DNA from: Periplaneta americana
Taxonomy: Eukaryota > Arthropoda > Insecta > Blattodea > Blattidae
Length of the DNA stretch: 64,000 nucleotides
Reading direction: 5' to 3'
NCBI RefSeq assembly: GCF_040183065.1
Contig: NC_091123.1
Span: forward strand, 7,349,501 to 7,413,500
Part shown: positions 6,319 to 52,215 of the stretch, in pieces
Position numbering within the stretch: position 1 is the first letter of the stretch
How the letters are laid out: each line of letters starts with the position of its first letter
Position numbers and translations under genes: made by a program
Notes under the pieces: model-generated
Told to the model about the DNA's origin: nothing
Database searches by the model: none
What the model saw: only the letters and a program-made list of their open reading frames with translations

Positions 6319-6370
<52 letters not shown>

Positions 6371-6683: not shown

Positions 6684-6725
<42 letters not shown>

Positions 6726-9700
6726 TTTCTTTCTTTCTTTTTCTCTTTCTCTCTCTTTCGTTCTTCTTTCTTTCTTTCTTTCTTATTAATATTAATATTC
6801 TAGCCCACAACAGTTGTAGAATAATAGGCTAGGACATAAATATAGAAATAATAAACATCAAAGTGGAAACAATAACAATTACATTACATTGAATATTGAC
6901 AAAATTGCACAAATAGGCCTATACAAAAATATTTTATGGGTTAAATTGTTAATATTAAAATGTAATGTTAAAAATGGCAGAATATTAATTCATAATGTTC
7001 TATTCAAGACCACATCTTTCACTGCAAACTCAGCACTATCCAGTCTTTCCTTTTCCATCTTCTCCAAGTGTCCGTATAAGATCCGTGCCTCTTAACAAAA
7101 CAATAACAATTAAAAATTAAGGATTAACTTTGATATTAGTAATAATCATTTACGAATTAAAGAATTGTCGTTACCATAAACAATCAAGTCTATACAATGA
7201 ATAGATTGAATTCACAGCCATGCATGCTGGCATTGTAATGCATCTGGAGACCGGAGATTAGAAATGTTGAATTTCTGTTATAGAAAAGTTTGTAAGCTCT
7301 CACACATTTCATCGGAACACGAAAGCTAACATTGCTTATGAAAGAATCACATGTTATATCACCTTTGAGGACCTTACATAATAGACCATTGAGTTCCTGG
7401 CGTCTGGAATATAAGCTTCGACAATTGGAAGTAATCAGACTATTTCATGACTATTCCCGGAGTCAACTGGGCAGAAATCTGTGTGAAAATAACGAAGTGA
7501 ATTTTCCTTTAATAGGCCTACTTTATAGTTTAACAGAGTCAGTCGTTTTAATTGAATTCCAGACTACAGGTACATACCAATCGAAGTAATGTATAGTAGA
7601 GTATTATAGTCAGTCGAGTGGAATATCGTGACGAGTACCGTTAAACGCTTTCTTAAGGAGTTCCGTACATTTTTTTTTTCATATATAAAAATATTTAGGC
7701 TGTGTCTCAAAGCTCAAGTCCATACTACACACTAGTGACTAGCAACTAGGTGACTTGTGAACTACACACTAGAGAGCTTTGAACATGTATGCTTTACAGT
7801 GACTGTAGTATGCTGGAATCATGGCCTTCTTCACAGACTATTTTTTCTAAAAAATCATGATATCACTGATGATAGCACTGAATTAAGAGGGCAGTGTCCT
7901 AATGCTGTTTCATTACGAGTTCTGTGGAAAGGATAAGGACCTAATATAGTAGTAGTAGTATTTCTACCCTATATGTAGTAGTAGTAGTATTTATTTATTT
8001 AACCTGGTAGAGATAAGGCCGTCAGGCCTTCTCTGCCCCTCTACCAGGAGATTCCAACTACAATATCAACAATAAAATTACAATTAGTATTAAATTTACA
8101 ATTACAATTACAAATAATATTACAGTTAGTATTAAATTTACAATTACAATAAAATCAAAGTACGAAAAGATTACCTGAATAATTAAAGCTAGATAATTTA
8201 TCATAGAGAAACAAAGAATATTTTATATTTACTGAATTACAAATTAAATCTAGATTAACAAAATTGTATAGTGATGAAATTACTGAATATTGAAATATTT
8301 TGTGATAGATTAAAGAAACTATTTACAAGTAATCAATTACTGACCAAGTGCCTAGTAAGTTTTCGTTTGAATTCAATTTTATTTCGACAGTCCCTGATGC
8401 TAGCAGGTAGCGAATTCCAGAGTCTTGGCAGGGCTATTGTGAAAGAAGATGAGTATGAGGAGGTGCGATGGGATGGTATTGTTAGTATTGTTTCATGACG
8501 AGAGCGTGTGTTCAGATTATGGTGGGAAGAAAGGTAATTGAAGCGAGACGACAGGTACGAAGGAATAGAAGAGTTCAAGATTTCGAAGAGAAAGAGAAGT
8601 GAATGTAAATTTCTTTTCTTATCTAGTTTAAGCCAACCTATTGCTTCCAGGGATGGGGTAATATGATCATATTTACGAACATTGCTTACAAAACGTACAC
8701 ACAAATTATGAGCACGTTGAAGTTTCATTTTGTTGTCGCTGGAGAGGTCAGTAATATTTAAAACATCGTAAAGAAAATATTGACAATTCCAATATTCAAA
8801 GTTAACGTTTTATCTACATTATATTTTTCATTATTTCACTTTCAAAGCATCTTTAGATATCATAACCCCAATTGCTGATGAGGTATCCATGTTTGTTTAG
8901 TGAACAAGTCAACAGTCAAGCAAGCATTTTCGTTTACTAGCTACTACGGACTTGATTGCTATTTACTACGTAGCTTTGGATCGTAACTTCTGATGTCACA
9001 TCCGTTTATTTAGTCAACAATCTAGTTCACTTCAGCTGAAAATGCAGCTTTGAGACACGGCCTTAGTATTTGTTAATTATTGTACATTGGAGTTGCACCA
9101 AATGCATGCAGCCAATGCGCTCATTACTGGGCCCATAGTTCCGGCCATTGAACGAACTGTTGACGAACAGAAGAGATTTGCTGCGAATAGTCATGGTGGC
9201 AGGTTTAAGAAAGGGATGTCAGATTTGAAAAGTATTAAATGTAATAAATGCAATTAACAATGAAAATTATACAAGATATTTGAGAAACAGTACGACAAAG
9301 GTGAAATGAATATTTATGTGTAAATTATTTTAGTATAGTTATGAAGTTAATGCGAACTGACAAATACCGTACGTACCTTTAATTTATTGACTTCAAGTAG
9401 GTTAATTCAACCTTGTATATAGGTATAATGCACGTTACAGGGCACTACGGTATATAATGAAGATTTGCTTGATATTATGGGTAGTATGTATATGTTATAA
9501 AAATGATTTGAAGTATATGTTTTGTGTTATGTTAAGGCTCATTCACAATGAAAATTAAACATAACGTAAGCGTTAACTTAAGAATATAAACGTTACGGTA
9601 AAATCAATAAGTCATACCATCATTCACGATGGGAACATAAACATAACCGCAAATATACTTGGTAACCATGGAAACATAACAACGATCCATTTCCTCATAT

Positions 9701-10358
9701 TCTGTCGTATACTTCAGCGCTCCACGATTGTGTTCTGTTTGCAAATCACGTAAGCATAAGCATGAAAGTTTGGAAATGCAAACTTTCATGTTAACGTCTT
9801 ACGATAATGTTTATGTCAATGCTTATGTGAATCATTGTGAATGATCCCATTTGGTAGCCTGGGCGCAAACTTCTGTGTTTATGTTACGGTTATGTTTAAT
9901 TTTCATTGTGCATGGGCCTTTACTTTATTATTTTTAAATATTACGTAGGCCTATATGTTGAAGTAATAGTTGTGGTTATAGGAATAACATCCAATAGATC
10001 CGCCCAAAAAAGTATGCCAAAGTTAGAATTTATTAATTATTTTGAGGAACATCGTGTGACATATAACAACACGTAAAATAAAATGTATATCATGTATACG
10101 TCATGTAAAATTAATGTAGAAACAGGAAATAATGCCACAAAACAAGGAAAAAGCTAATAATTCAGTTCATGGTGTATGCATATGTATGCATATGTTGGTA
10201 AGCCTGGAATCTGGAAAGTAACTATATCGTAAAAGAAGTAAATTTCGATGTAGTTTGAAAGAAAAATATTGTTTATTTTTCATCAATACTCTAAGATATA
10301 TTACATGGTGTTCTTCTTATTTGAAAGTTGTTAGTAATAATTGAATTTTAATGAATAA

Positions 10359-10415
<57 letters not shown>

Positions 10416-11982
10416 TCTTTAAAGCGAGATAAAAGGGGTCAAGAGTGAAATGGAAAGCAACTTTCTTTCCATAGAAACCTATACAATCTCAATTAAAAAG
10501 TGTAATTCCAAAACGCGTTAAGTCCATTTTTATGAAAGGTAGTCGGTCTGCGGACTGAGTGACTTTTCAGATGACATGCAAAACAACACGAACTTTTAGT
10601 CAAGGATTGGCGTTGCTTTCGAAGACAACAATATTACAATATAATGATAGAGGTCTGAAACACAATCATATAATGTATAAATCATAAATATGGCCAAATG
10701 CACATAGCGGGTTTCAGGATCACACTGTTCAATTGACCTATTCCTTTTTTCCCCGTTTAATTTCCTTTCTGGATCTTACAAGGCTGTGCCCATAGGCAAC
10801 GGATAATTTTGTGGATCACACACGAGACATTCACAATTGAGGGACCCACCTGGCGAGGAAAGTCGACGTGGGGACTTCGCTTCAAGATAATACGATCACA
10901 TACTGTATATAAGCAACGGGCAGAACGTTCGGTGTAGTTGCAAAGTAGATTCCAATTTGGCATTCCCCTTTGCAAGTGGAGAGAACATCACACTCGGACT
11001 GGCCGATCTCGGGATTGGAACCCAAGCCATCCGAGTGACAGTCCGAGACGATAACGCCTCGACCAACCCTCTCGTTGTTGGACATTATTCACTTAACTTT
11101 CAAATAACTGTAACGAGTTTTTTTTTTTTTTTGCTAAGAAGGTGTCGCTGTTTATAAACAATGTAATGAAATAAAAAAACGAGGCAATTAGAAAGTTATG
11201 CAGATCTTGCATACATACAAAGTGACCTCGGTTTCCTCATAAATTATCTGTTTCATAACTGATGGTAAACTAACCGTTATAAAATAAAGTAGCTGGTGAC
11301 CAACATTCGATATTCCTTAACATCAAAACAACGTAATTTCAGAGACAACAGCGCTGGACGTACTTCCGACACAGGCTGTACATCTGTTTGCATAGAGAAA
11401 CGGGGATGAGTGACTGATTGAAAAGGCTGGAGAACGGATTCTTAAATTTCAATATAGTAACTTCCTGCCCTGAAGACGAGTCCAACTCAAATTCCACTCT
11501 TGGCTTTGTAGGATGAAATCTACAGTACTGCAAACTTGTCGAGGTCACACTGTGAGGTCGATATGTTAACTCGGAATTTACTTATACATGTTTCCGTGTT
11601 ATAGACATGTCGTTTATACAGGGTGTTGAAGAAGCATTCAGTGTTTTGTGAGGTGTTAATAGTCATCAAAACAACAAACAATAGTTTAAGAAGTATGGGC
11701 TGAAATTAATATCTTTCGAGATATCAGTTCTTGTTCATGAACATCGTAAGAAATGCTCAATGTGATTTCTATTCTCTATAACTCATCCTTCTCCCCTATG
11801 TCTTATGGAATCACACCTTGTTACCCCTTTGTTTTCTGCATTTCTGATATGGTACCCAATTAAAAACAAGAAAAGACTTCGTATTAGAAAATGGATAGGC
11901 TATGTTATTCTTACAATATTAATTAGAAGTTGTCGTTTCATACAAAATTTAATTTTAGGACCCATGGAAATAACGACCTTCT

Positions 11983-12021
<39 letters not shown>

Positions 12022-15000
12022 GTGAAGAAGAACATGTACTCATATCTGAAAACATATTAATTTTAGGACCCAATTTTACTAGACATTTTTCTTGTTTTGA
12101 TGAATATTGCCATCTCTTAGAATATTGAATCCTTTTTTTTTTAAGTGGAAAACACATTGAACATATATGATGTGTACTAATATGTATTCATATATATGAA
12201 AATATTAATTTAGGACCCATGTTTATTTGACTGTTTTTCGTTGTTTCGATGAATACTACCAGTTTTTAGTATATCGAATGCTGTTTTTAAAACGGAAATC
12301 ACATTCAATATCTCTGTGATGGTGATGAACAAGCAATCACATTTCCGAAGTTATTAGTTTTAGGACTCATGTTTAGACTTTGTTTCTTTGCTGGATGAAT
12401 AAATGCTACGTCTCAAATTATTCAGTGCTTTTTGACATCCTGTATTTAGTGAGACTATTCTGACTTCTCTCACGTTAACAAAGTAAACAGTGTGAGTTAA
12501 CCTGTACTCCACGGTGGTCCACACCAGCCTCCTGAGAAACTCGGAGGTGTCCTCGTCCACGAACCGCAGCTTGAAGAAGCTCTGCAAGGCGGGACACACG
12601 AACATGGTGAGACTGGCCAGCCCCTTCCTGATGGAGAAGTCCATGACGCCCGCTATGTACTTCTTGTATTCGGAGTCCGGGTTCTCCAGAGAGTTGCCGT
12701 CGATGCCCAGGACGCAAGAGGAGATCACGTCCATGGTGTACCGCATGGTGGCGTCCCTCACAAGCACGGAGGAACCTGGGGACCGCGTGTTGAGTAAATT
12801 AGTTCATCCTGCCCAGCCTTCTGGAAAACATATGGCGCTTGTCTCTACTGGGCAAAAGGAAAGAAGGAAAGAAAGAGAAAGCGAGAAAGAAAAAAATTAC
12901 ATTAGTTTATGAATGGATAGTTGGGTAGGTAGAAAGAGAGACAAAGAGGCATGCGTACGGACGGACGGAGATAGTTATGTAGGTTGATAAGTAGACAGGT
13001 AGATAGCTAAGTAAATATATAGATAAGTAGCTAGATACATACCGTGTGAACCATAAGTAATGGCATTAGTTTCAGGAGGTTATTTTTTTAGATGTTTCAT
13101 ACAAAGCTTAATACAATTTTGCTCGTTTATACTTCCTTTTCGAGATGGAAATAGTTTTATATGAGAGATTTCATAGCGTATTTTAGGAAAGGAATTAATT
13201 TACTTCTCAATAAGCTCAGTGAGTTTAAGAGAGAAGTTTATTATGATTATGCATTATTCAACGAATTTTAATTTTGTCCTTTAAATATGCAGAAGTGCTG
13301 TACTATGCTGAAGTTTTCCGTGCAATCACGGATGATAGGAGGAGATCAGAACATTGTTTAGCACAGGGTGTCGGACATTTTGAACAATTACTATGGAGAG
13401 TGTACGTACATAAACAACACACATTTCTCAGAAAGTACCATTTTTGTTGCTTTGTGAGTAAATAATAAAAGTTAGAAAAAAAGTTTCAGTAAAAGTTGTT
13501 TCTTTCAATGACCCATGTTCTCATTTGAAATTTCGAAGCTGACCAAAGGTACCCCTACTTCCGGTTTGTTACGCGAAATGGTACTACCAGTAATCGATTC
13601 TTTACATAGGTTTTAGTTATCAAAATTTTTTACGAACAACCAGTATCATATAGTTTTCGAGAAAAAGGCTGATACGGGTGGTCTGAAACACCCAGTATAC
13701 AGTATATAAGTAGATGGTCAAGTACGTAAATAAGTAAGGAAGAAAACACATAAATATTGTGACAGCTGCAACGGGGTTCGAACACGCGTCCGACGAAACG
13801 ATGGTACGGGGAGCATCTGCATGCTGAAGGGCAGAGGGGGTGTATTACGTCAACGCGGCGAGGGGAGGTTGCGCGCGCAGCTGCTACTTGCGGAGTGAAG
13901 GGGGGACGGACCCTCTCGAATCGTCCAGAGGAGTCCGTCGAAGCGGAGATATCCAGATAATTCGAGAGAGCTATCTCTGGACACCCGTAGAAATTTCTCG
14001 TAACTAAGGTTTAGCTATAAAAGAAGAAACGCGAGCGAACTTGAGCAGTTTTCAGTCATTCAGCCAGTCAGTAAGGCAGTGCAGTTAAAGTCAGTGGAGA
14101 GCAAGCAGACAGTCTTGTGTAGCAGTGAAGCCAGCTTCGAGACCAGAGCGCGACTTGAGTTGTGTCCGTAACTGTGGAGCCTGAAGCCCGGAGTTCGAGT
14201 GCAGTGGAACGCAGTTGGGGGACCTGAGTTCGAGTACAGTGGACTGTTTCTGAAGGTCTGTGGTTCGAGATACTGTGAACTTGAGTGACTGAGCTAGAAG
14301 AACTGTGAACTGAGAACTGACCGTTCTGTGTTGTAAATAGTGCTTTGTAAATATTAAGTTAAGATTAACAGTTCATTGTTGTTCGTAATAGTCCAAGTAA
14401 ATTGTCATTGTCGTCTGTGGAGTGCACTAACGAATACTGTGTTACTGTGTGGAGAGCAAATCCTATTGTTGAGATAATAAAGTTACATTGTTGTCTAGTT
14501 TAAAAAGTTATAATATCAAGTAAGAAATAGAAAGCCAGTGAAGCAAGTAGATAAATGACTAGTTAACTGCTAGATATATTGGTAAGTGAACAGTTCATTG
14601 GATATTTAAGTATGTAGTTCAAGTGTTACTTAATAAAGTAGAAATTAGTTACTGTGCGTGGAACACAGACGAAGGACTGGATGCACAAACTCACAGATGC
14701 TCACACTGCAGAACTGATTACTGACCTGATCTCATGTACTCACCGTCAGCCGTTGTTTCTTCCAGCATACGAGTCAGTTGTATGGCGCAGGCTTCAACCT
14801 GTTCGAACATTTTCTTCGTCTTTCCAGCTGAGAAGGATGGCTCCAATTTCGTCCTTACGTGCCTCCATCGCTGTCCTTTCAACAGAGGAATACATTTCCC
14901 CATAAAGGGGTCGACTTTCTCATCAGCCGTCATAGCCCTGTCTATAAAATTGTGCGAATCCTTAATAAGAATATTCTTGACTAACTCCAAGTCCACCACC

Positions 15001-15266
15001 ACCAAACACGGCTGGTCGAAACAAAAGATCCCCACGTACGGTTTGTCCTGGTTTTCATCGTACACTTTCTTCAAGAAGAGTCCTATGTTTGTCTTCTGGA
15101 GGACTGTGTCCTTCAAGTTACCCACGAAGGGAATCGGTTTTAAGTATGGAATACCGAGTTTTTTCCAGAAATTAAAATTCCTGACCATGTAACAATATAG
15201 AGCGACGAGAATTAGAGTTAATAAGGCGATTGGATATAAAATTATCGATGCTAAGGTCACTTCCAT
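3528..15266 (-). CDS. Cytochrome P450, CYP6-like (copy 1), six exons, complete
   Basis: Microsomal haem monooxygenase of clan 3, probably oxidising xenobiotics or other hydrophobic substrates at the ER membrane with P450 reductase. Exons in transcript order: 15266-14744, 12775-12502, 6553-6459, 6244-6023, 4449-4186, 3694-3528. All junctions are GT...AG and the frame stays open (1545 nt, 514 aa), a usual length for the family. Seen: N-terminal hydrophobic anchor (residues about 5-28), a PYLKPIPFVGN proline hinge, helix C WRHVR, helix I AGFETSSTT, K-helix ETQR, FDPERF, haem loop FGDGPRKCLG and a final IRHT before TGA. The start codon follows CAAA and is the only Met before the anchor. CYP6 assignment is by recalled resemblance, not a search. 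Introns 2 and 4 are filled with mobile elements and repeats. Confidence 0.93.
4650..5590. repeat. Purine-rich minisatellite in intron 4 of P450 copy 1
   Basis: Nearly 1 kb of plus-strand purine-rich DNA built from variants of GGAATACAAGGAGAACAAG, irregular units of about 15-20 bp. In the P450 transcript it is CU-rich. The same array occupies the same intron in copy 2 (27975-28660) and copy 3 (41335-42270), so it predates the duplications. Long open frames on the minus strand here are composition artefacts. Confidence 0.85.
6324..6367. repeat. (TA)n microsatellite
   Basis: Pure TA array in intron 3 of P450 copy 1, between exons 3 and 4. It is missing from the matching intron of copy 2. Confidence 0.95.
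6672..6785. repeat. (ATT)n and (CTTT)n compound microsatellite
   Basis: An ATT array running directly into a CTTT/CT-rich array, at the start of the part of intron 2 that copy 2 does not share. Confidence 0.9.
7698..9062. mobile_element. Harbinger-like TIR element with a nested LINE
   Basis: Ends are inverted: GGCTGTGTCTCAAAGCT at the left and AGCTTTGAGACACGGCC at the right, flanked by TTA at 7695-7697 and 9063-9065. A 3-bp TTA duplication and GG-starting ends are typical of PIF/Harbinger. No transposase is seen. The LINE at 7984-8760 lies inside it, so the element is a MITE of roughly 580 bp enlarged by a later insertion. Confidence 0.75.
7984..8760 (-). mobile_element. 5'-truncated LINE (jockey/CR1-like), 3' part of RT ORF
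   Basis: Minus-strand frame 8728-8333 encodes the C-terminal region of a LINE reverse transcriptase, with LQRAHNLCVRFV, HNLNTRSRH and LWNSLPASIRD, typical of jockey/CR1-type elements. The 3' UTR includes the AAGGCCGTCAGGCCTT hairpin and ends near a TAG-triplet tail. Nested in the TIR element 7698-9062. Confidence 0.8.
9535..9919. mobile_element. Harbinger-like MITE, 385 bp
   Basis: Inverted ends AGGCTCATTCACAATG and CATTGTGCATGGGCCT, extending to about 30 bp, flanked by TTA at 9532-9534 and 9920-9922. No coding capacity. Confidence 0.8.
10363..10411. repeat. (AAT)n microsatellite
   Basis: AAT array of about 16 copies in intron 2 of P450 copy 1. Confidence 0.95.
10950..11110 (-). repeat. tRNA-derived SINE fragment
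   Basis: On the minus strand an A-box-like GGTCGAGGCGTTA is followed by a B-box GGGTTCCAATCCC, with TGATGTTCTCTCC beyond. The spacing fits a tRNA-derived SINE promoter; arms are too poorly paired for a tRNA. Confidence 0.6.
11619..12442. mobile_element. TIR element with TA target (mariner-like MITE) in intron 2
   Basis: CAGGGTGTTGAAGAAGC at the left is the inverted counterpart of AAAAAGC...ATCCTG at the right, each next to TA. Inside are several diverged units of about 130-150 bp, each with TTAGGACYCATGTTT and a TGATGAAT...ATTGAATGC block, plus a GAT microsatellite (11984-12020). Copy 2 keeps only the right part (about 34735-34954). The lone left end at 49483 belongs to the same family. Confidence 0.6.
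12950..13040. repeat. Degenerate GATA/GGTA simple repeat
   Basis: Runs of GATAGNTAGGTA-type tetranucleotides in intron 1 of copy 1; intron 1 of copy 2 has the same kind of sequence at 35440-35510 and 36090-36330. Confidence 0.7.
13364..13695. mobile_element. Short TIR element (MITE), about 330 bp
   Basis: Left end CAGGGTGTCGGACATTTT; right end inverted, GGTCTGAAACACCCAG. Related ends to other CAGGGTGT elements in the window. No ORF. Confidence 0.5.
13758..14512 (+). mobile_element. Solo LTR of an LTR retrotransposon (fossil)
   Basis: About 755 bp beginning TGTGACAGC, with a TATAAAA box near 14015 and an AATAAA near 14477, and no internal region. It is flanked by ATAT (or AATAT) on both sides. 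P450 copy 2 shows the unoccupied site (near 36445), so the insertion is younger than the gene duplication, or was lost from copy 2. Gypsy-like family is a guess from layout. GC and CpG content are clearly higher than the surrounding intron. Confidence 0.65.
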
Positions 15267-26856: not shown

Positions 26857-29800
26857 TCAGATGTGTCTAATGAAAGTCATCGGAATCTTCTCCTTTGGCG
26901 CCACATTGAAAGCCCTGGGGTCTAGACTAAGGGGAATGGGTGTTTCCTTGCAGGGCGCCACTTCGTATCTGGATAAGATGTGGACCAATCCCGTCTTCAC
27001 CTGCATCAAGCCAAACCGCTTCCCTGTGGAGATCATAAAATATTGTGTTATATGTGTAGTGTAATTGTGATGTAAAACAAGGGTCTCTGCGATATTAATC
27101 CAGAATATTCTAATATTATTTCAATTTCTTCATGTAATCACTATAGGTTGCCATAGACAAGAGTACCTTGATACAATAAATATGGAGTAAATGCCTTGAG
27201 GCTCAGTGAAACATGTAAGTTTGTGCATCATGAATTTTTATAAACATCTTTATCAGCGGTTTCCGAAGCTTGGTTGGCGAGTGAAGTCAAATGTTGTTAC
27301 CCTGCTGTGTTAAATATGGAGCTATTTACAAATAAAGTTTATTCCGTTTGAATACTAAATGAATTAACACCTGCCGAGATATGAGTTACTTCTTCTTGGA
27401 CATGATAGAAGATTTCCATTAAAAGAGCATTCAATACGTAATGTATCATGTGTTAGGAAATGCTTATGTGAAGTATATAAGAAACTACGTGTAACAGCTT
27501 TTATTTACCTAAGCATATTCTGGGACCTTCTCCAAATGGCATATGAAGCAGATTGGACCGATTCCTTTTGTTTTCTTCTGAAAATCGTTCCGGGTCGAAC
27601 TTTTCTGGATTCGGGAAGTATTTTGGATTGTTCTGAATCCCAAAAATTGGGATGTAGACAGCTGTTCCTGCAGGAAGGATGATAGTTCCACTACCGTGTG
27701 GGTCAGGTATCTCATAGTCTCTCTTGCACCTCCGGTCCAGGAACGGCAATGGTGGGTACTTCCTTTGAGTCTCTGTGGACAAGATGGGTCCAGACTGAGA
27801 AACAGATTCTGGCCATTTTAATTGATGGATCTTGTATACAGAAATACGTAGAACAGAAGTGAATTAGAACAGTTAAAAATTTGATGAGATTATCATGACC
27901 TTTTTAAAATATTTTTATAATTAACGTGAGTCCTTACAGAGCAAGAAATTTTCTCATCAAATTGTGACTAGCATGTGGAAAAACAAAGGGAAGAGGAGTA
28001 GAAGGAAAGGATAACAAGAAATTACAAGTAGATTTAGAGGCATATAACAACAACGATTGATTACAAGGAGAGCAAAAGAATACATAGAAAGCAATTGAAA
28101 TACAAGGAGGAAAAAGGGGGATACGCGGAAAACAAATGTAATGCAAAGAGACAATATTAGAGTACAAAGGGAGCAAGAGAAAAAAGGCTAACATGGGGAA
28201 TAGAGGGAAAACAAAGGGAATACAAAGAGAACAATGGGAATACGTGGAGAACAAGGGACTACAAGTATAATAAGGGAAATACGAGGATAACAAGGGGAAT
28301 ACAAGGAGAATAAGGGGAAGACGACAGGAACAAATAGAATACTAGAAGAAAAGAAAAATACAAAGATAACAAAAAATACAAGGAGGACATGGGAAATAGA
28401 AGGAGAAGAAATTGAAAACAAGTAGAAGAAAAATACTAAAGATTAAGAGTTATATAAAAAGGAAAGGAGATGATAATAAGAACAAGGTGAAGACAAAGAA
28501 GAAAAACGAATACAGTGAGAATGAGGGAAAAGCAAGGAGGACAAGAGAAGATAAGGAAAACATAATATACACAAAGAGAACAAGCGAGAATGGCATGGTA
28601 AATAGAGGAATACAAGGGAAACAAAGGGCACGCAGAGAGAACAAGGGAAAGACGAGAAAAAGTGCGGTGACTACCTTTTTTATGAACTGGGAACTATTGC
28701 AATTCGAAAAATCTCGGCAAATATGTAGAACTAATTTGTGCATATGGTAACTAATTTCTCCTAAACATAGTGGTCTGGAGACATATTGGACCGATAATTT
28801 TCATTTATCTGTTTGTGTTATGCAAGAAGAAAATTAAAAGAAACTAAAATCAATTTCGAGGTAATCGCTAATTTATGTTTTTTGATTTCAAACTAAAATC
28901 TATTAAATATTTACAAAAATGTTCGTATAATTCTTGGATAAAGTGACTTATAAATTCTTAATAGGGACACAATTCGTGTGATAGAGTAGGAAGAAATCAT
29001 TATTGCACTGTCGATGGGACAGATAGGCGGCATTCCAGAAAAACACTTTCCTGGATAAGGGATGCTGAAAACTGATTTTCTTGTAAATCTGCACATCATT
29101 GTTCGTACCTGCCACCACCATGTCCAGGTAATGCAGTTCCTGTAAGTTGTCATAGGTGAGTTTATTCTGGTGAGGTGCCAATACTCGGGCTATCTCCTCC
29201 CTCACTCTCCGCTGAATGTCAGGGTGCAAAGCCAGCTCGTACAGGGTGAAGCACAGAGTAGTGGAGGAAGTCTCGTACCCAGCAAACAGGAATACGAAAG
29301 CCTGTGCTACGTAGTCATCACTGTCCATGGCTGTCGGAGAAGTCATATGGTAGAGATCATTAGCAGAATTCGATGAAATGCAGGAATAAGCAAGTGACTG
29401 GACAAATAAAGATATTATATAGATTAGTATCTATCTTAATCTCTACACAGAGTGTTAGAGAATGTTACACTGAAAAAGTCAGTATGTGTAAGGAAATAAC
29501 TTACTGGTTTTCGTGCCGTTACTAGCGTCCATCTTTTCCTGGTTCATGAGCTCAATCAAACGGTCCAAGAAGTCGTTGCGCTCTGAGCCGTGTTTTTGTC
29601 TGTAATTAATAGTGATTGCACATGGTTTATTATTATTACTAATGGCTTTGTTCGATTCGGACTCTTCAATTCCCGTTGTCACCTACAGATGAAGGCACTT
29701 CAGATCTATATAAATTGCCATGCGAATACAATTTTAATTTGGCATTGATGAAATTGGCTTTGAGGAACTTTCCCTTGTTGGAGGAACCGAGTATAATTTT

Positions 29801-32800
29801 AAATATTAACATATTTAGACTTCAACAATAGGTAAGAAGATATAGCTGCGAGTAAAATACCAATTCCAACAATTCTTCTTGTTCTAGAAGTAAAAGTATC
29901 AGTAAGGGTAAGTGTAAAGTTTTAATATATACACGTAATATTTGAGTTTAATTATAATTTAACGGTTCATAGCAAAGAATAACCAAATGAGATTCAGCAA
30001 GTTACCATTTTCCTAGGAGAAAAAACGAGTGTCACCTATAGGTGATGGTGACACGACCTATAGGTGACACGGAGAATTGTACGTCAATTTCCTAGGAGAA
30101 AATATGAGTAGGCTATCATCTATAGGTGACACGGAGAATTGTATGTCAATTTCCTAGGAGAAAAAATGAGTATCATCTACAGGTGACACCGGGCATTGTA
30201 TGTTAATTTCCTAGGAAAAAATATAAGTATCATCTACAGGTGACACGGGGCAGTGTATGTTAATTTCCTAGGAAAAAATATAAGTATCATCTACAGGTGA
30301 CACGGGGCATTGTATGTTAATTTCTCAGGAAAAAATATAAGTATCATCTACAGGTGACACGGGGCATTGTATGTTAATTTCCTAGGAAAAAAATATAAGT
30401 ATCATCTACAGGTGACACGGGGCATTGTATGTTAATTTCCTAGGAGAAAATATAAGTATCATCTACAGGTGACACGGGGCATTGTATGTTAATTTCCTAG
30501 GAAAAAATATAAGTATCATCTACAGGTGACACGGGGCATTGTATGTTAATTTCCTAGGAAAAATTGTATGTCAGTTTCCTAAGAGAAAATACAAGTATCA
30601 TCTACAGGTGACACGGGGCATTCATTGTATGTCAGTTTCCTAGGAGAAAATATAAGTATCATCTACAGGTGACACGGGGCATTGTATGGCAAATTCCTAG
30701 GAGAAAATAAATACATCTTGATTACACAACATTTAACACTGTATCACTTCGGAATATGTATTATGTGACTTTGTGTTAAATTCTATCGTACCCGGTTTAC
30801 ATGTTTGGACCTATTTTCGGTCATCCTCAGAAATGGTCATTGTTGGTCTTGGCGCCTCTTGTTTTGTTTCCTGTGAGGGTGTGTTCGTGTGGTATAATAT
30901 GGAGTCATAGAGTGTGTGTTCTGAAATTGAGTTGTGTGTTGAGAATTTAATTGGGGTGTGTTTTTGTATGTCTGTATATTTCATGTTGTTCTAGTGTGTT
31001 TAGTTTCTGGCTCTTTGGTTGGATGTGCAGTATTTCCATGTCTGTGGTGATGTCTCTGTAGATGTGGTTAACATTTGTGATGTGTTCTGCATATGTGGAG
31101 GTGTTTTGTAATTTTGTTATGGCTGTGATGTGTTCTTTGTAACGTGTTTGAAATGATCTGCCTGTCTTTCATATGTAGAAGTTGTTGCAGGTGTTGCATT
31201 TGAGTTTGTATACGCCTATGTGGTTGTATTTGTTTGTTTGTGGTGTTTGTGTGTTGAGATGTTTTTGTAGAGTGTTCTTTCTTCTGTATACGATTTGTAA
31301 TTTAATTTCTTAAATGAGGTTGCAATCTTGTGTGTGTTTTTGTTTTCGTATGTTAGTGTGATGTATTTTTTGTGTTCTTGTGCTTGTGTTGTATTGTTAT
31401 GTTTTTTGTGATTAAGTTTTGTCTTACGTATTATGTTGTCTATTATGTTGGGGTTGTATCCGTTTTCTTGTGCTATGTATTTGCTTGTGTTTAGCTCTTC
31501 GTTGTAATCCTGCTGGTTCATTGGTATGTTGAGTAGTCTGTGTACCATTGTTCGGAATGCAGCTTGTTTGTGTTGTGTATGTGTGTTGTTGTTGGGGGTT
31601 TTCTGTATAGACAAGTAGACAACAAATACACATTCAAAGTATACACAATAAATTGTATTATTTGTTATTAAAAATGTGATAATTCAACAAAGGGTTAATT
31701 GGCCTTATTAGGAACAGCGGTTCCAAATAAGACCAGCCCTGAATTTCCAAATTTTAGAAATAAACAGAGTTGATAAACTTTTCAATTGATGGAACAAACG
31801 ATTGAATAAAAATATATTTTATTTAATATAATAAAGAAAACTGTAAGTCATTGAGAAAATGGTTTGTACACTATGAATAGCACAAAACGTTTCAAATTAT
31901 ATCAGAACTCAATCATTTTCACATTCTGGGCACTCAAAATGTACAATTTTCTGTTGTTTTGTATTCCCTATACAATGTCCATGCACATATCTGTGACGAG
32001 ATTCACACAAAATCATATCTCTGATAACGTCCTCACAAATAAAACAGTACCATCTTAAATAAATTTAATTGATTAATTAATTAATTCTTAAATAAATAAT
32101 TAAGTAAATAAATAAAGAAAAACAAATAAATACAAATAATTAATGCAAAGAATTCAATAAATCATATGGTTCTGATAGATCCATCGCTTGGGCTTAAAGA
32201 GGTACATACGTTTCCTTTTATTTTGTTACGTAAAACAATTCTAATTTAAATTATATTATAAAAGTATTTAGAGAGCTCGAAAATAGATAAAACACTAGAG
32301 GCAGATGCTGCAAACTAAGTACAGTAGACGTTCAAATAAACATTTTACAGATTTATTTTCAATGAAGAATACCAGACATTCTGAAAGTTATTTGCTTCGA
32401 TAATAATGAAAGATACTCTCTCTCGAGCCAATACTGAAGAGAACCACGCATATAAATATCTACACCACACCGCCATTAAATATATGGAAAAGACCCAACC
32501 CCACTTGATTAATAACTATAAAAATATTTGATTTTCAATAATATTATTATCTTAACGTAAGTTTTATAGCTTTCAGTAACATATGCTATATAGCCGCCAC
32601 TCATTAAAATATAGAAATCAAAATCTAATTTAAGTTATTCTCTACATCTACTTATATAACCCCAAAACGTTTCACTTTCATATCATCAATATAGCATTAA
32701 TATGTATAATTAATGAAAAATAGTCACATCACGGCATTAACTACAATAATATTTCATTTCTAATAGTAATAATGTCATCAAACCACCTCAAGTTTTGTAG

Positions 32801-35800
32801 TTTTTAATATCCAATACACAGCTGTACCCAGAAAATTACACACCACAGAATCGAACCTGTAAATTATTTTTAGTAAGTAAAGTTTTTAATAACCAATTTA
32901 ATTTGAGCTCTAAATATATCAGCATTCTTGCAGATCATGGCCTTCGTGTAATATTGTTTACTGTAGTGTGTGTTTTGTTTTATTCTGAAATGCAACACGG
33001 CCGACTTGATGCTCGCTTCACTTCTTGTGAATGCAATTAGCTAGTTTAGCTAGTTCTAAAAACTGACGACAGATGGATTTTGGAAAATAGGAAAATTATG
33101 TAGAAAATTGACATTTCACTGAAAACTACTATTTTTCCGAAAAACGTTGGGTTCCAATCTTCAAAATGCGGGGCCATATATTAAAATCCGTTCGGCCGTT
33201 TTCCCGTAATTTCCATTACCAGTTCAAATTATATATATAGATACTATAATATATACATAACACACTTCATTTTCAAGATATATATAAGGAGTTTTAAACA
33301 AAAACGCACTTCCCGTGTGGTGGTGTCAACACAGTCAGGTTCGACCGCACAGCTTTCTTCCTCTATGTATTCACTACAACTGACCACAAGAGAGTGGTTT
33401 ATATGCCGTAACATTTAGCAGAGCATGCGGATGAGGACTATGCTGCCTTTATCACCAAAACATGACAGTTCTTCGAAAAACAGTAATTGGTCTTATTGGT
33501 CTACATGGCCTTATTTGGCACACTTACTTTAACTTACTCACATCTGGAGACTTTTCTTGTTTTCTTGTTTTGATGAATATTGCCACTCTGAGAATATTAA
33601 ATGATTTTTTTAAAGTTCAGGGACATCATTTTATTTTTACTAACATTTTTAATATTAACCTGGCTATACCTTTGGATTAATGATTCAGAGCCGGAAACAC
33701 CGTTTACTACCCCCTTCCACGATTGAATTTCGATGATACTGGCGTAAAATACAAACAAATCACTTTACTAGGTATACATAGAAGGGAAGGAAAGTAGTTC
33801 ATCCATTTACGTAAACTAGGAGATATCGTAATTTTGAATTTGATAATTTTCATCAGGTTTTTGTTTAATCAAAATATAGTACAGTATTAACAAGAGGCCT
33901 AAGTGTTTTTACTCACGAAATGAGTTATCCATGCGAACGTATTCATTATGCAGTGTATATTATACTATCTGCAGCACATTAGCGTACAATATATAGAATG
34001 AAGTTAAATTGAAAAATAATCATAATATGGATATTTAACCACAATTTTGAAAATGGTGGCCGTTCATTTCGATACAGGCTTCAGTTCTAATGTGCATATT
34101 ATCGCACTATAGATTATTGCATCTAATTCCAATTACCAGTTTCGTCATTCGTACTAGTAACTCATGTTGAAATAATTCTATACCTATTATGTAAATTATA
34201 TAAAAGAGTACCTTACGTACTGTAAATTCAATCTTCAGTTCTGCCCGACCCGCATAGATAAAATTACTCAGACATGCTATCTACTGTCCGTCCAAGTGGT
34301 ATGTCGCAGGATCGTAGTAAGGGGGGAAATCACGTGACAGTTAATTACTTTTTTTAAAGTTTTTTACACAGTTGAGGGTGAGGGAAATCGGGATGCGACA
34401 TAGGCAAACAGACGACAGTACCTGTGCGAAAATATGATTCAATATTGAAAGCTCTTTTGTCACTGGAAAACGCGAACATATTTCTGGAACGTACTATACT
34501 CACTAACTCAATACTGTTTGTGTTTACTACGACCTTAAGGCGACTTTGACTGTATACGCTTGGTTCTGTGAGGAGAACAGTTGGAAGTTCACTAGTAGAG
34601 GGGGTGGGAGTGAAGTACATTAAAAAACTCAGGTAAAATAAAAATTGAAGTAAAAATAAAATGATGTCCCTTTAGAAAACACATTGCACATCTATGATGT
34701 TAAGAATAAGTAGGCGTACTAATATGTGTGAAAATATAAATTTAGGACCCATGTTTATTTGACTTTTTGTTTTTGCTTTGGTGAACACTAACCACTTTTT
34801 AGAATCTGGAATGCTATTTTTAAAACGGAAATAACAGTGAACATCTCTGTGATGTTGATGAACAAGTAGTCAGATTTCGGAAGTTACTAGTTTTATGACT
34901 CATGTTTAGACTTCGTTTCCTCTCAAATTATTCAATGCCTTTTTTCTGACATTCTGTATTTAGTGAGACTATTCTGACTTCTGTCACGTTAGCAAAGTAA
35001 GCAGCGTGAGTTAACCTGTACTCCACGGTGGTCCACACCAGCCTCCTGAGGAACTCCGTTGTGTCCTCGTCCACGAACCGCAGCTTGAAGAAGCTCTGCA
35101 AGGCAGGACACACGATCATGGTGAGACAGGCCAGCCCCTTCCTGATAGAGAACTCCGCGATGCCCGTTATGTGCTTCTTGTATTCGGAGTCCGGGTTCTC
35201 CAGCGAATTGCCGTCTATGCCCATCGCGCAAGAGGCGATCACGTCCATGGTGTACCGCGTGGTGGCGTCCTTCAAGAGCACTGGTGAACCTGGGGATCGC
35301 GTGTTTAATTAGTTCATCCTGCCCAGCCTTCTGGAAAACATATGGCCCGTCTCTTTGCTGGACAAAAGGGAGGAAGAAAGAAAGAAAGAAGCGAGAAAGA
35401 TAGAAGGAAAGAAATAAAAAATTACGTTAGTTTATGAATGGATAGTTGGGCAGTTCATAGACAAAGAAACAGGAAGATAAGTAGACGATCGATAGGTAGG
35501 TAGATACGTACAGTGTGAAACATAAGTAATGCCATTAGTTTCAGGAGGTTATTCTTTGAGATATTTCAAACTAAGCTTAGTACAACTTTAGTCGTTTTTG
35601 CTTCCTTTTCGAGATAAAAATTGTTTTATATGAGACATTTCATAGGGTGATTTGGGAAAGTCTTTGATTTAATTCCCAATATGCTAAGCCAGTTTAAGAG
35701 AGCAGTTTTTAATGATAATGAATTATTGAAAGAATTTTAATTTTTTCCTTTAAATGTTCAGAAATTCATCCGAACAAATGTAACGTTGCAAATTTCCTTC

Positions 35801-36344
35801 GGAGAATGAACATTTAGATTCGTTCGGATCAAATTTCTGCACATTTAAGGGAAAAAATGCAATTGTTCTGATCACTTTTTATCATAATACACTACTCTCT
35901 TAAAATGACTGAGCATATTAGGCATTAATCAATGGCTTTCACAAATACGCTATAAAATGTTTTATATAAAACAACCTTTTTTCATGAAAAGGATGCAGAA
36001 ACGAGCAAAATAGTAGGGAACTTAAGTTTGTAATATCTCAATGAATAACCCCCTGAAATTAATGGTACTACTTAGGTTTCATTCTGTATAGTTAGATAGG
36101 TATATTGTTTAATAGGTAATGTAGATACGTAGGTAGGTTATGTAGATATGTAAGCAGGTAGCTGAAAAGAGGTGGGTAAGCAGAAGATAATTAAATACGT
36201 AAGGAGATAGATAAATAGGTAAGTAGGTAGGTAGCTGAAAAGGGGTTAGTTAGTACACAGGGAGATAAATAGGTACACAAGCACGCATATAATTAGTAAG
36301 GAAGCAGATATGTGTGTAGGTACATGAGCAGTTAAATAGAGCAG

Positions 36345-36411
<67 letters not shown>

Positions 36412-37201
36412 TACTTGATCAAATAGGTAGAAAAGAAAACACATAAAATATCAAGTAAGATATAGAAAGGCAAGAAAGCTAGTAGATAAATGACTAGTTA
36501 ACTAGTAGGTATATTTGAAAATAGGGAGCTGAGTGCATATTTAAGAATGTAGTTCAAGTGTTACTTAATAAAGTAGGAATTAGTTAGTGTGCGTGGAACA
36601 CAGACGAAGGACTGGATGCACAAACTCACAGATGCTCGCACTGCAGAACTGATTACTGACCTGATCTCATGTACTCACCGTCAGCCGTTGTTTCTTCCAG
36701 CATACGAGTCAGTTGTGTGGCGCAGGCTTCAACCTGTTCGAACATTTTCTTCGTCTTTCCAGCTGAGAAGGATGGCTCCAATTTCGTCCTTACGTGCCTC
36801 CATCGCTGTCCTGTCAAGAGAGCAACACATTTCCCCATAAGGGGGTCAACTTTCACATCAGCCTTTACAACTCTGTCTATAAAATTGTGCGAATCCTTAA
36901 TAAGAATATTCTTGACTAACTCCAAGTCCACCACCACCAAACACGGCTGGTCGAAACAGAAGATCCCCACGTACGGCTTGTCCTGGTTTTCATCGTACAC
37001 TTTCTTCCAGAAGACTCCTATGTTTGACTTCTGGAGGACAGTGTCCTTCATGTTACCCACGAAAGGAATCGGTTTTAAGTATGGAATACCGAGTTTTTTC
37101 CAGACATTAAAATTTCTGACCATGTAACAATATAGAGCGACAAAAATTACAATTAATAACGCGATTGGATATAAAATTATTGATGCTGATGTCACTTCCA
37201 T
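26857..37201 (-). CDS. Cytochrome P450, CYP6-like (copy 2), six exons, complete
   Basis: Tandem paralogue of copy 1 with the same role expected. Exons: 37201-36679, 35289-35016, 29599-29505, 29330-29109, 27772-27509, 27023-26857; every exon has the same length as in copy 1 and the product is again 514 aa. Motifs: WRHVR, helix I AGYETSSTT, ETQR, FDPERF, haem loop FGEGPRICLG, C-terminal IRHI. By eye it differs from copy 1 at about 18 of 174 residues in exon 1, 15 of 91 in exon 2 and 5 of 74 in exon 4; eight exon-1 changes lie in the B-C loop and all five exon-4 changes lie in or just before the start of helix I. Intron 2 (29600-35015) carries a 57-bp minisatellite, a Penelope-like fragment and a mariner-like element not found in copy 1. 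No coding break is seen. Confidence 0.93.
27975..28660. repeat. Purine-rich minisatellite in intron 4 of P450 copy 2
   Basis: Same GGAATACAAGG/AGAACAAGGG-type array as 4650-5590, about 250 bp shorter. Confidence 0.85.
30009..30707. repeat. 57-bp minisatellite, about 12 copies, in intron 2 of P450 copy 2
   Basis: Units of 57 bp with the order TTTCCTAGGA, AAATATAAGTATCATCTAC, AGGTGACACGGGGCATTG, TATGTTAA. Central units are nearly identical; edge units are diverged (ACCTATAGGTGAC variants). Each unit contains the short palindromes CCTAGG and TCACCTAYAGGTGA. It is absent from copy 1 and ends about 60 bp from the 3' end of a Penelope-like fragment. Confidence 0.93.
30766..31655 (-). mobile_element. 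Penelope-like retroelement, 3' fragment (RT end and GIY-YIG endonuclease)
   Basis: Minus-strand reading includes HKQAAFRTMVHRLLNIPMN, the RT-linker region, and then GVYKLKCNTCNNFYI...RYKEH, the GIY-YIG endonuclease with a C-x2-C knuckle typical of Penelope-like elements. It is 5'-truncated and its coding frame is broken. The 5' edge has a short inverted copy of its own sequence (31617-31652). A structured motif near the 3' end (30788-30830) is described separately. Confidence 0.85.
31660..33120. other. AT-rich intron sequence, no gene seen
   Basis: Within intron 2 of P450 copy 2. Very AT-rich with ATTAATTAATT and AAATAAATAA runs near 32060-32150; no ORF, tRNA or recognisable element. Confidence 0.5.
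33120..33242 (+). mobile_element. RTE-like 3' tail
   Basis: AAAATCCGTTCGGCCGTTTTCCCG followed closely by TTATATATATAGAT parallels the 3' end of the element at 19034-20015. Only the end is recognisable. Confidence 0.4.
33618..34672 (-). mobile_element. Mariner-like TIR element (1055 bp) in intron 2 of P450 copy 2
   Basis: Ends CAGGGACATCATTTTATTTT and its inverse ending ATGATGTCCCTT. Same family as 43357-44356. Copy 1 has the uninterrupted sequence at about 12125-12160, so this insertion is younger than the duplication. No transposase frame survives. Confidence 0.75.
36349..36409. repeat. (TA)n microsatellite
   Basis: Pure TA array of about 30 copies in intron 1 of P450 copy 2. Confidence 0.95.
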
Positions 37202-40221: not shown

Positions 40222-41126
40222 TCAGGTGTGTCTAATGAAAGTCATCGGAATCTTCTCCTTTGGCGCCAGACTGAAAGCCCTGGAGTCTAGACTAAGGGGG
40301 ATGGATGTTTCCTTGCAGGGTGCCACCTCGTATTTGGATAAGATGTGGACCAATCCCGTCTTCACCTGCATCAAGCCAAACCGCTTCCCTGTAGAGATCA
40401 TAAAAGATTGTGTTATGTGTATAGTGTAATTGTGGTGTAAAAAAAGGGTCTCTGTCATATTAATCCAGAATATTCTAATATTACTTTAATTCTTCATGTA
40501 ATCACTATAGGTTGCCATAGACAAGAGTACCATGATATGGAGTAAATACCTTGAGGCTAGTGAAACATGTAAGTTTGTGCATCATGAGTTTAGAAACATC
40601 TTTATCAGCGGTTTCCAAAGCTTGGATCGGGACATAAATGAAATAATGTTAACCTACTGTGTTAAGTGTGGAAACTTATCTGGTTTACAAATAATGTTTA
40701 TTCCGTTTCAATACTAAATGAATTAATACCTGCCAAGATATGAGTACTTATTCATCGACATGATAGGAGATTTCCATTAAAATAGCATTACATAATATAT
40801 CATGTATTAGGAAATTTTTATGTAAAGTATATAAGAACTATATGTAACATGCTTTTATTTACCTAAGCATTTTCTGGGGCCTTCTGCAAATGGCATATGA
40901 AGCAGATTGGACCGATTCCTTTTGTTTTCTTCTGAAAATCGTTCCGGGTCGAAATTTTCTGGATTCGGGAAGTATTTTGGATTGTTCTGAATTCCAAAGT
41001 TTGAGATGTAGACAGCTGTTCCTGCAGGAAGGATGACAGTTCCACTGCCGTGTGGGTCAGGTATCTCATAGTCTCTCTCGCACCTCCGGTCCAGGAACGG
41101 CAGTACTGGGTACTTCCTTTGAGTCT
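40222..41126 (-). pseudogene. Cytochrome P450, CYP6-like (copy 3), only exons 5 and 6 remain
   Basis: Exon 5 (41126-40863, 264 nt) and exon 6 (40388-40222, 167 nt) match copies 1 and 2 in length, phase and splice sites. They encode the ETQR K-helix, FDPERF, haem loop FAEGPRKCLG and a C-terminus ending IRHT. Both exons are open. No exon 1-4 sequence is found on either strand in the 22.8 kb to the right. Homology runs through the intron-4 purine repeat to about 42270 and stops at a LINE. Without an N-terminus it cannot make a normal P450, so it is a truncated gene fragment, unless exons 1-4 lie outside the window, which is unlikely given the usual spacing. Confidence 0.85.
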
Positions 41127-41334
41127 CTGTGGACAAGATGGGTCCAGACTCAGAATCAGTTACTGGCCATATTAATTAATGGACCTCGTATATAGAAATA
41201 TGAAAAAGACAAGTGAAGTAAAGCAGTTAAATATTTTATGGATATTAATACGAGATTTTTTAAAATATTATTATCATTAACGTAAGTCCTTACAGGCGAA
41301 CGGATTTTCTCATCAAATTGTGGCTAATATATGG

Positions 41335-42270
41335 AAAAACAAAGGGAAGAGGAGCAGAAGGTAAGGATAACAAGGAAAATACAAGGAGATTTAGAGGAAT
41401 ACAAGAGCAAGATAATTACAAGGAGAACAAAAGAATACATAGAAAGCAATTGGAATACAAAGAGACGAAGGAGTATAGAAGGATATCAAGGGGAATACAA
41501 GGAGGAAAAGGGTAATACATCTATAACAACGGAATGCAAGGATAACAAAAGCAATGTAAGAAGTAAAAGGTAAATACAAATTTAACAAGAAAAGTAAGGG
41601 AGAACTAGAGAAAAAAAAAGATCCAGAGGAATATAAGGAGGAAAAATGGGGATATGCGGAAAACAAATGTAATGCAAACAGACAATTGGAGTAAAATGAG
41701 AACAAGAGAAAAAAGGCTAACAAGGGGAATAAAAGGAAAACAAAGGGAATACAAAGAGAACAAGAGAATACAAGGAGAACAAGTGAATACAGGAGCAACA
41801 AGAGGAATAGAAGGAGAACTAGAGAAATGCAAGGAGAACAAGAGGAATGTAAGGGTAACAAGGGGAATACAAGAAGAACAAGAGAATACACGAACAACAG
41901 CAGAACAATGGCAATAGGTGGAGAACAAGGGACTACAAATATAATATGAGAACTACTAGGATAAGAAGGGGATACAAGGAGAATAAGGGGAAGACCACAG
42001 GAAGAAGTGGAATACTAGAAGAAAAAAATACAAGAAGAATAAGGGAAACAGAAGGAGAAGAAAATGAAAACAAGTAGTAGAAGAATGCTAGAGGATAAGG
42101 ATTATATAAGAAAGGTAAAGAAAGGAGATGATAATAAGAACAAGGGGAAGACGAAGAAAAATGAATACAGAAAGAATAAGGGAAAAGAAAGGAGGAAAGG
42201 GAAGAGAAGGAAAACATAAGATACACAAAAAGAACAAGCGAGAATAGAATGAGAAGTAGAGGAATACAAG
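41335..42270. repeat. Purine-rich minisatellite of intron 4, P450 copy 3
   Basis: Same array as in copies 1 and 2. Its right part (AGAGGAATACAAGGG) is cut by the LINE at 42271, where homology to the P450 unit ends. Confidence 0.85.
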
Positions 42271-42838
42271 GGATCAATATCTGATCAATAGTTGATCTAT
42301 TACGCCTAAAACCACACTGATGATCCCCAATAATTTCATCTACATATGGAGTTAATCTTCTCAAAAGAATATTAGACAAAATTTTGTTCGACGTCAACAA
42401 AAGTGATATTCCTCGAAAGTTACTACAGATAGTCTTGTCCCCCTTCTTAAAGATAGGTACGATTATGGACTCCTTCCATTGTTCTGGTACAATTTCCTTT
42501 CCCAAATAGCAAGTACAAGTAAAAAGTAGGAAGAGAAGACGACTGGGAAATAGGAAAGTAAACGGTCTTATAAATTTCGTTTGTGATGGACAGAGCATGT
42601 ACCACGTATGGGCGAATCCAGAAATGCATATAGAGTGTTAGTTGGGAGGCCGAAGGGAAAAAGACCTTTAGGGAGGCCGAAACGTAGATGGGAAGATAAT
42701 ATTAAAATGGATTTGAGGGAGGGGGGATGATGATAGAGAATTGATTAATCTTACTCAGGACAGGGACCAATGGCGGGCTTATGTGAGGGCGGCAATGAAC
42801 CTGCGGGTTCCTTAAAAGCCAATAAGTAAGTAAGTAAC
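42271..42838. mobile_element. LINE with inverted 5' part, at the P450 array breakpoint
   Basis: The right part (about 42562-42838, plus strand) is the LINE 3' end, with encoded GRPKGKRPLGRPKRRWEDN-like residues and a (TAAG)n tail, and matches 51955-52215. The left part (about 42510-42271) is in the opposite orientation and encodes the RT N-terminal block PEQWKESIIVPIFKKGDKT...GISLL...GFRRNRSTIDQI. Inverted 5' segments are the known product of twin priming during LINE insertion. Confidence 0.82.
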
Positions 42839-43356
42839 AGGTTTCTTCCTAATTCCGTGAATTTATTCTCTTTCCTTGCTCTTCGGAAAAATGTTGACGT
42901 TCATACAGACAGACGTTGGTGACCGCTTATTATTCAGATGTGTTTTCTTCCTCGTCCGATTCTCTGACGTGCATGGGCTGCATAACAACCAGTGAACAGT
43001 CAACAAGGGCCGCTTTACTCAGTTTGCACTTAATGGCCTCTATTTAAATGTATGCGAAACTCGCTCCGTTGGGTTAAATGGGACTAGATGGTACCGACAC
43101 GTTTTCCTAGATGGCAGCATTGTTCAGCCGACCGCTGCATGATTTACGTCGTCACCTCCAAACTCCGTTCCTCCTCCATAGATAATCCTCGGTTTGTCGC
43201 CCACAACCTTCCGCAATAGTCGGGAAGTTGCACTCTTGTTTATGGACCCCCCTCCGTCTTCATTACGAGCGAGCTTTTTGCCTCTCGGCTTAATTTAGTG
43301 TCTAGGTCGGACTCTAGATGGCTCGTCTTCCCACTCTTAACGTTAAGTTTTTTATA

Positions 43357-45264: not shown

Positions 45265-45738
45265 TCATCATAGCCTACATCTTAAGTTTTTTGTTAAGCA
45301 GCTCTTAGTTTTTCAGTGTATACCGGTAGTAAAAATCCTTCATTGTTATAGGATCAGCATCCTTTCTCCTAAGCACATGCATTACTCCTAAGCAAACCAT
45401 TGGATTTGCATGTAATGTTATTGTGTGCTTATTAAATCACTTGATTTCTGTACGCTGAAGAAAATAAACTATACGCAGTAACATCGTGGTGACATGACAA
45501 AGGAACTGAGTTTTGAAGCGAGCAAAATCCATAATGTGAAAGTATGTATGAACTTCGTGGCACTATTTCTTTTTATGTATTTGATTTATTCGATTTTATG
45601 TCAGAGCGTCCTTTTACTTTCCTATTTTCCAGTCGTCTTCTCTTGCTACTTTTTACTTCTTTCTATCCTCTTCCGCAATTTTTCATTAATTCATTTCTCT
45701 TCTCTGACTGCCTTTAATTTCTTTCCATCTTCATTTAA

Positions 45739-45971: not shown

Positions 45972-45999
45972 TCATTTCCTCTCTTGCATCTTTTCTTTC

Positions 46000-51240: not shown

Positions 51241-51364
51241 TACAAGGTCTCGACTCTTCATTTGTATTACATAAATTATGAAAGCATTCGAATTGATTTT
51301 TCGTTCTTTTTCTAATGAGAATAACAAAAGGTAAAGTCTATTTTCTTATTTGTATGCATTGTAC

Positions 51365-52215
51365 ATCAGCTTATTGTCTATGCTGATGACGTGAATATGT
51401 TAGGAGAAAATCCACAAACGATTAGGGAAAACACGGGAATTTTACTTGAAGCAAGTAAAGCGATCGGTTTGGAAGTAAATCCCGAAAAGACAAAGTATAT
51501 GATTATGTCTCGTGACCAGAATATTGTACGAAATGGAAATATAAAAATTGGAGATTTATCCTTCGAAGAAGTGGAAAAATTCAAATATCTTGGAGCAACA
51601 GTAACAAATATAAATGACACTCGGGAGGAAATTAAACGCAGAATAAATATGGGAAATGCGTGTTATTATTCGGTTGAGAAGCTCTTATCATCCAGTCTGC
51701 TGTCCAAAAATCTGAAAGTTAGAATTTATAAAACAGTTATAATACCGGTTGTTCTGTATGGTTGTGAAACTTGGACTCTCACTCTGAGAGAGGAACATAG
51801 GTTAAGGGTGTTTGAGAATAAGGTGCTTAGGAAAATATTTGGGGCTAAGCGGGATGAAGTTACAGGAGAATGGAGAAAGTTACACAACGCAGAACTGCAC
51901 GCATTGTATTCTTCACCTGACATAATTAGGAGCATTAAATCCCGACGTTTGAGATGGGCAGGGCATGTAGCACGTATGGGCGAATCCAGAAATGCATATA
52001 GAGTGTTAGTTGGGAGACCGGAGGGAAAAAGACCTTTAGGGAGGCCGAGACGTAGATGGGAGGATAATATTAAAATGGATTTGAGGGAGGTGGGATATGA
52101 TGATAGAGACTGGATTAATCTTGCATAGGATAGGGACCGATGGCGGGCTTATGTGAGGGCGGCAATGAACCTTCGGGTTCCTTAAAAGCCATTTGTAAGT
52201 AAGTAAGTAAGTAAT
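51365..52215 (+). mobile_element. 5'-truncated LINE, RT from the YADD box to the 3' end
   Basis: The frame begins inside the RT active site (IVYADDVNML) and runs open for about 250 codons through KFKYLGATV, VVLYGCETWTL, RRLRWAGHVARMG and GRPRRRWEDNIKMD, the usual C-terminus of arthropod endonuclease/RT LINEs. One stop precedes the last DRWRAYVRAAMN segment. The tail is (TAAG)n. GTACAT on both sides (about 51362 and 52208) may be the target duplication. The long open frame suggests a fairly young copy. Confidence 0.88.

Follow-up and report, generated by a model that had tools for sequence, protein, structure and literature searches.

How does the last gene of a cytochrome P450 tandem array come to stop short of its first four exons, and is the LINE that lies where it stops the reason for their absence? 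The Periplaneta americana DNA analysed here (the window: 64,000 nucleotides, C7:7349501-7413500, with zero N bases, in a genome of 3.23 Gb and 91 contigs) had been examined earlier by eye, and that sequence-only reading proposed that a twin-primed LINE may have removed exons 1–4 of the third P450 copy. We consider that one such insertion, with deletion of its target, probably did so. To our knowledge LINEs at the edges of gene-truncating deletions have been documented mostly for human L1, and among the papers listed by our literature search none reports an insect P450 gene truncated by a twin-primed LINE, which is no proof of absence. What the locus offers is a natural case resolved to the base: in an insect P450 array, a gene-truncating deletion has a LINE at its edge, and the six sister genes, along with numerous relatives of that LINE, serve as internal controls.

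A P450 array and its incomplete last gene

The P450 genes of the window are on the minus strand (Pfam PF00067), and CYP3A chains are their top matches among solved structures. Searches by tblastn, with peptides of the copy 1 and copy 2 exons as queries, place seven P450 genes in C7:7280000-7423500, with all six exons found in six of the seven; for the four genes outside the window completeness is judged by exon matches alone. The same stretch has a lone exon-6 fragment at 7319806-7319886 (70% over 27 residues, tblastn) and a 5-kb block of N (7282501-7287501) that lies in neither the window nor the genes. Copy 1 occupies 3534..15266 (minus strand; exons 15266-14724, 12776-12501, 6555-6442, 6266-6021, 4489-4181 and 3710-3534; tblastn and Pfam PF00067, exon 1 having been missed by Pfam in a long translated stretch and found by tblastn) and copy 2 occupies 26860..37201 (minus strand; exons 37201-36659, 35290-35015, 29601-29488, 29352-29107, 27812-27504 and 27039-26860). 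Copy 3 (40228..41166, minus strand), the right-most and seventh gene, retains by tblastn only two exons, each of them open: exon 5 (41166-40858) and exon 6 (40404-40228). For these two exons dN/dS is 0.041/0.097 when compared with copy 1 and 0.049/0.086 with copy 2; for copy 1 against copy 2 it is 0.047/0.152. The haem-binding motif in copy 3 exon 5 (40858-41166) reads FAEGPRKCLG versus FGDGPRKCLG in copy 1, a possible sign of decay.

The edge of P450 homology

Intron 4 of copy 3 contains a purine-rich degenerate repeat with a unit of ~20 bp (41363..42273, plus strand), the last base of which is the last that derives from P450 sequence. Homology to copy 2 ends at 42273, with GGGA, and homology to copy 1 at 42276, with mismatches, while the mutual homology of copies 1 and 2 runs on past this stop to 6613/29659. 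The unit had been read as stopping at about 42270, with an inverted reverse transcriptase fragment beginning exactly there, and so it proves: the inverted arm of the LINE starts at 42276, 2 bp from the P450 end, the intervening TC (42274..42275) having no counterpart in the sister P450 copies or in the LINE relatives with which it was compared. P450 intron sequence continues past the breakpoint in five of the six sister genes, those readable there, and the sixth (at 7325 kb) can be matched to copy 2 from the first base past it onward; none of the six has a LINE at the equivalent intron 4 site (five read directly, the sixth by its P450 match). From breakpoint to exon 1 start the sister genes, which stand in here for an orthologous pre-insertion allele, span 6.2, 6.4, 6.7, 8.6, 9.7 and 10.3 kb, so at least about 6.2-10.3 kb is missing from copy 3.

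Was the join guided by pairing between the chromosome end and the LINE RNA? The eight bases GAATACAA occur in copy 3 P450 sequence at 42262-42269, 6 bp before the join, and the identical eight bases directly precede the LINE start point in 11 of the 13 listed relatives that carry the arm-1 sequence. In a sliding 8-base test, designed after this match had been noticed, matches of at least 8 bases to the last 24 P450 bases fell at 1-3 of 1554-1560 positions of the antisense LINE and at 2-5 positions of the sense LINE, in each of four relatives. The intron repeat of copy 3 holds GAATACAA seven times, and annealing of the LINE there would therefore have been easy. The left join is not a clean anneal-and-extend product since GGGATC intervenes between GAATACAA and the LINE; the TC could come from slippage on the LINE, where GATCAATA occurs twice.

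Two arms of one LINE

The inverted arm (42276..42519, minus strand) carries the putative start of the reverse transcriptase domain (RVT_1 3-54) and, after 47 foreign bases, resumes at the very next LINE base (42567..42581, minus strand), where 13 of 13 listed relatives continue without an insert. It shares CGTT (42578..42581) at the inversion junction with the forward arm (42578..42837, plus strand), the 3' end of the LINE with an (AAGT)n tail. That a (TAAG)n tail closes the forward arm had been recognized earlier, and it comprises TAAG three times over and a final TAA, the last base being 42837; the earlier start of that arm, at about 42562, has to be moved to 42578, and 42520-42566, earlier taken for LINE, is a 47-bp insert. 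In element reference coordinates the inverted arm runs from 579 to ~320 and the forward arm from 1501 to 1762, so within the element the inverted arm is the more 5' of the two, they do not overlap there, and ~920 bases between them are missing. Host DNA abuts the LINE on the left at an internal base of the element and not at its 3' end, which counts for twin priming because that is exactly what twin priming predicts. An inverted 5' arm, a forward tailed 3' arm and the CGTT overlap together make up the twin-primed anatomy that had been proposed.

The two arms belong to one family. A genome search with 42240-42860 gave at least 40 non-self matches, 29 of them listed as loci, and both arms match dispersed relatives at 92-98% among the matches listed, so that a chance match is not the explanation. 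The arm-1 sequence is present at 13 listed loci, in 12 of which the same element also carries the 3' end (L009 is the one without); the gap between the two is 0.90-0.93 kb in 11 listed relatives, and L027 has an internal deletion. The short arm scores 28.4 bits for RVT_1, where the cut-off is 29.6, and matches L1 ORF2p in PDB with an E of 0.00076; a second, 5'-truncated copy of the family in the window (51362..52214, plus strand) exceeds the cut-off at 32.6 bits. Six other pieces of the family lie in C7:7280000-7423500. Searches of viral contigs and of phages gave no LINE relatives, plasmids gave one 24% match, and prokaryote assemblies gave two partial matches to the LINE and none that matched the RT arm significantly. 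Two LINE-family pieces (L001 and L002) are in contigs titled as Rickettsiales and Nitrososphaerota MAGs, probably through contamination with animal DNA.

An insert of local origin

The 47 bases within the inverted arm (42520..42566, plus strand) are new here. Segment 42517-42565 matches 45658-45610 at 46 of 49 bases, on the opposite strand, with a score of 83 where the best of 300 local shuffles reached 40. Searching the 3.23-Gb genome with the insert, by a method that skips simple repeats and very common words, found two places only, itself and 45610-45658, the latter (45610..45658, minus strand) being its probable template; the insert was thus apparently copied from DNA 3 kb away, the three differences in 49 being too few for dating. 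All 13 listed relatives continue at 42519 either with (C/A)TTATAAATTTC or with that sequence shifted by one base, and their lack of the insert, with its sole other match in the genome search at 45610-45658, led us to reject both upstream LINE sequence and 5' transduction as its source. It is possible, if doubtful, that during synthesis of the inverted arm the polymerase left its LINE template, copied 47 bases of chromosomal DNA from the right-hand side and returned to the next LINE base. Were that so, a local genomic template switch would be recorded in a twin-primed insertion that also deleted >6 kb, and the right-hand side of the chromosome would have taken part in the insertion intermediate. 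The insert is a handle on the repair intermediate. Beside its template lies an imperfect 235-bp palindrome (45738-45972), MITE-like by eye.

Target-site duplication

LINE ends were compared in the 15 of the 29 listed relatives that have a clear 5' start. Ten of the 15 have exact end repeats of at least 8 bp (8-17 bp), seven of at least 12 bp; a further three have repeats of 5-7 bp and two have none of at least 5 bp. Among random pairs in the window 11 of 1000 reach 8 bp and 3 of 1000 reach 12 bp. At the ends of 42276-42837 there is no repeat of at least 5 bp, on which two separate comparisons agree: a looser comparison gave AAGTA only, which is located within the tail, and the forward arm by itself gave a 6-bp match inside the tail, a score equalled or exceeded by 6% of random pairs. 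This absence fits the deletion form of insertion because a deleted target would leave no duplication. As a counterweight, five of the 15 relatives likewise lack a duplication of at least 8 bp, as does the window's second LINE copy, with its 6-bp end repeat.

The right flank and the missing exons

Beyond the array, the right flank (42838..43347) matches only itself in the genome search, and the proposal that DNA past the LINE is unrelated to the P450 unit holds in substance. The matches to the unit within 42838-64000 are repeat-type elements at 43348-44365 and 44438-45272, together with short unclassified stretches (51-218 bp, 61-75%) around 48.1-49.6 and 57.8 kb. Exons 1–4 are absent from both strands of 42.8-64 kb and from the next 10 kb. 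With the exon 3-4 region of copy 2 as query the genome gave 36 matches, of which nine, at 77-100% over at least 356 bases, come from the six genes of the array and a single gene on C17; the other 27 are of 44-258 bases at 67-90%. The high-identity matches being these genes, no orphan exon 3-4 half is seen. The C17 gene (L050-L053, within C17:16560000-16599999) is a dispersed relative of the array genes with exons 1–5 and an intron 4 of 17 kb. C17:16569731-16597590 was considered as the missing half of copy 3 and rejected, for it carries exons 1–5 (exon 6 was looked for up to 16599999).

Other resemblances concern repeats or composition. The similarity of 43348-44365 to 33606-34681 (59%) was rejected as a resumption of the unit, since both have inverted ends and look like a DNA-transposon pair, which, diverged as it is, we take by eye to be Tc1/mariner-like; the 33606-34681 element sits inside the unit, and the copy 1 spacer (12139/12148) is without it. 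Segments 44438-45272 and 31608-30759 form a repeat pair (89%) with a frame that by eye resembles a Penelope-like GIY-YIG end, for which Pfam gave no match. Matches of 51-185 bp at 66-75% link 49476-49649 to the unit spacer at 11616-12446 and 34730-34908; they are unclassified, perhaps a dispersed repeat. A pyrimidine tract at 46.0-47.2 kb scores 156 bits against the P450 intron tract and was rejected as a homologue, the score being one of composition: shuffled tracts reach it in 2, 2 and 3 of 40 (k=2, 3 and 4), and the tract reversed without complementing scores 165.

How were exons 1–4 lost?

We file 42276-42837 as a LINE working like twin priming, in its deletion-associated form. LINE RNA would have served as template for reverse transcription at the right end of the tandem array, with the 3' end of the LINE primed at 42838, and a second DNA end, this one within intron 4 of the array's final P450 gene, would have primed inside the same RNA and so given the inverted arm. 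The two cDNAs would then have been joined via CGTT; the ~0.92 kb of LINE between them would have gone uncopied, and the stretch of chromosome separating the two DNA ends would have been lost, and with it exons 1–4 and the promoter. That this was a single event, with steps in this order and LINE endonuclease as the breaker, is what we infer. For the sequence-only proposal that the LINE removed exons 1–4 there stand the anatomy, edges no more than 2 bp apart, the missing exons, the absence of a duplication and the sister genes without the LINE. What is not borne out as stated is its supporting premise, considered below, and the 47-bp insert, which falls outside simple twin priming, also counts against it.

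We say 'probably', and no more, because a LINE patch of an earlier break would leave nearly the same trace. On that alternative, which we think rather unlikely, copy 3 had lost its 5' part earlier, to a double-strand break, and LINE RNA was captured, independently of endonuclease, as a patch that marks the loss without having caused it. The lack of a duplication at 42276-42837 would suit it, as would the extra TC and the 47-bp insert, and with truncated LINE arms the final anatomy would be alike. However, patch insertions are often 3'-truncated, and here the LINE keeps a complete 3' end and tail, just like the ordinary copies with which it was compared. Should the LINE fragments and the deletion instead be separate, with a later rearrangement breakpoint hitting or joining two LINE pieces, the density of LINE copies in the array, with the six other pieces already mentioned, would have provided opportunity; but independent breaks would have to coincide precisely with the two natural ends of a twin-primed element, and arms that have CGTT in common do not overlap within the element, all of which makes this very improbable. 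An assembly misjoin through the LINE, a multicopy repeat, deserves still less credence, as it would give an ordinary element with swapped flanks, whereas here the edge is an internal LINE base, the inverted arm carries DNA whose sole other match in the genome search lies 3 kb to the right, and the window is without N.

Comparison with known systems

Twin priming as the source of 5' inversions of human L1 was reportedly set out by Ostertag and Kazazian in 2001. The cockroach insertion is like the human ones in its inverted 5' arm, forward tailed 3' arm, short junction overlap and internal LINE deletion, and unlike them in belonging to another LINE family, in having no target duplication and in the 47-bp insert in the inverted arm. 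Twin priming of human L1 is described in PMC2912911 and PMC2837659. The premise that 5'-inverted LINEs are known for large target deletions finds no backing in the HeLa results given by the former: 17 of 17 5'-inverted L1 insertions in an assay by Gilbert et al. had duplications, of 10-17 bp, and target deletions accompanied 5'-truncated insertions (PMC2912911). An inversion with a big deletion is therefore unusual, and the pairing of a 5' inversion with lost target DNA runs contrary to what the HeLa data would lead one to expect. L1-mediated deletions in tumours have 5' junctions with 1-5 bp of microhomology in 47 of 63 and insertions of 1-33 bp in 9 of 63 (PMC7058536). Like those, the present case has a tailed LINE at a deletion breakpoint and no duplication; unlike those, it is in a reference genome and is 5'-inverted, and its insert is inside the inverted arm and not at the host junction. 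Transposons in insect P450 loci are the subject of PMC1852546, for which alleles of Helicoverpa zea P450 loci were scanned; transposon activity at xenobiotic P450 genes is the common feature, but that was an allele scan and here the subject is an end-of-array copy without four exons.

Relative age

Sequence divergence is compatible with, and no proof of, a LINE insertion later than the P450 duplications. Intron 5 of copy 3 differs by 11.4% from that of copy 1 and by 10.8% from that of copy 2, and the 3' flanks of copies 3 and 2 differ by 5.4%; the closest relatives of the LINE among the matches listed are 95.1% identical for the 3' arm and 97.6% for the RT arm.
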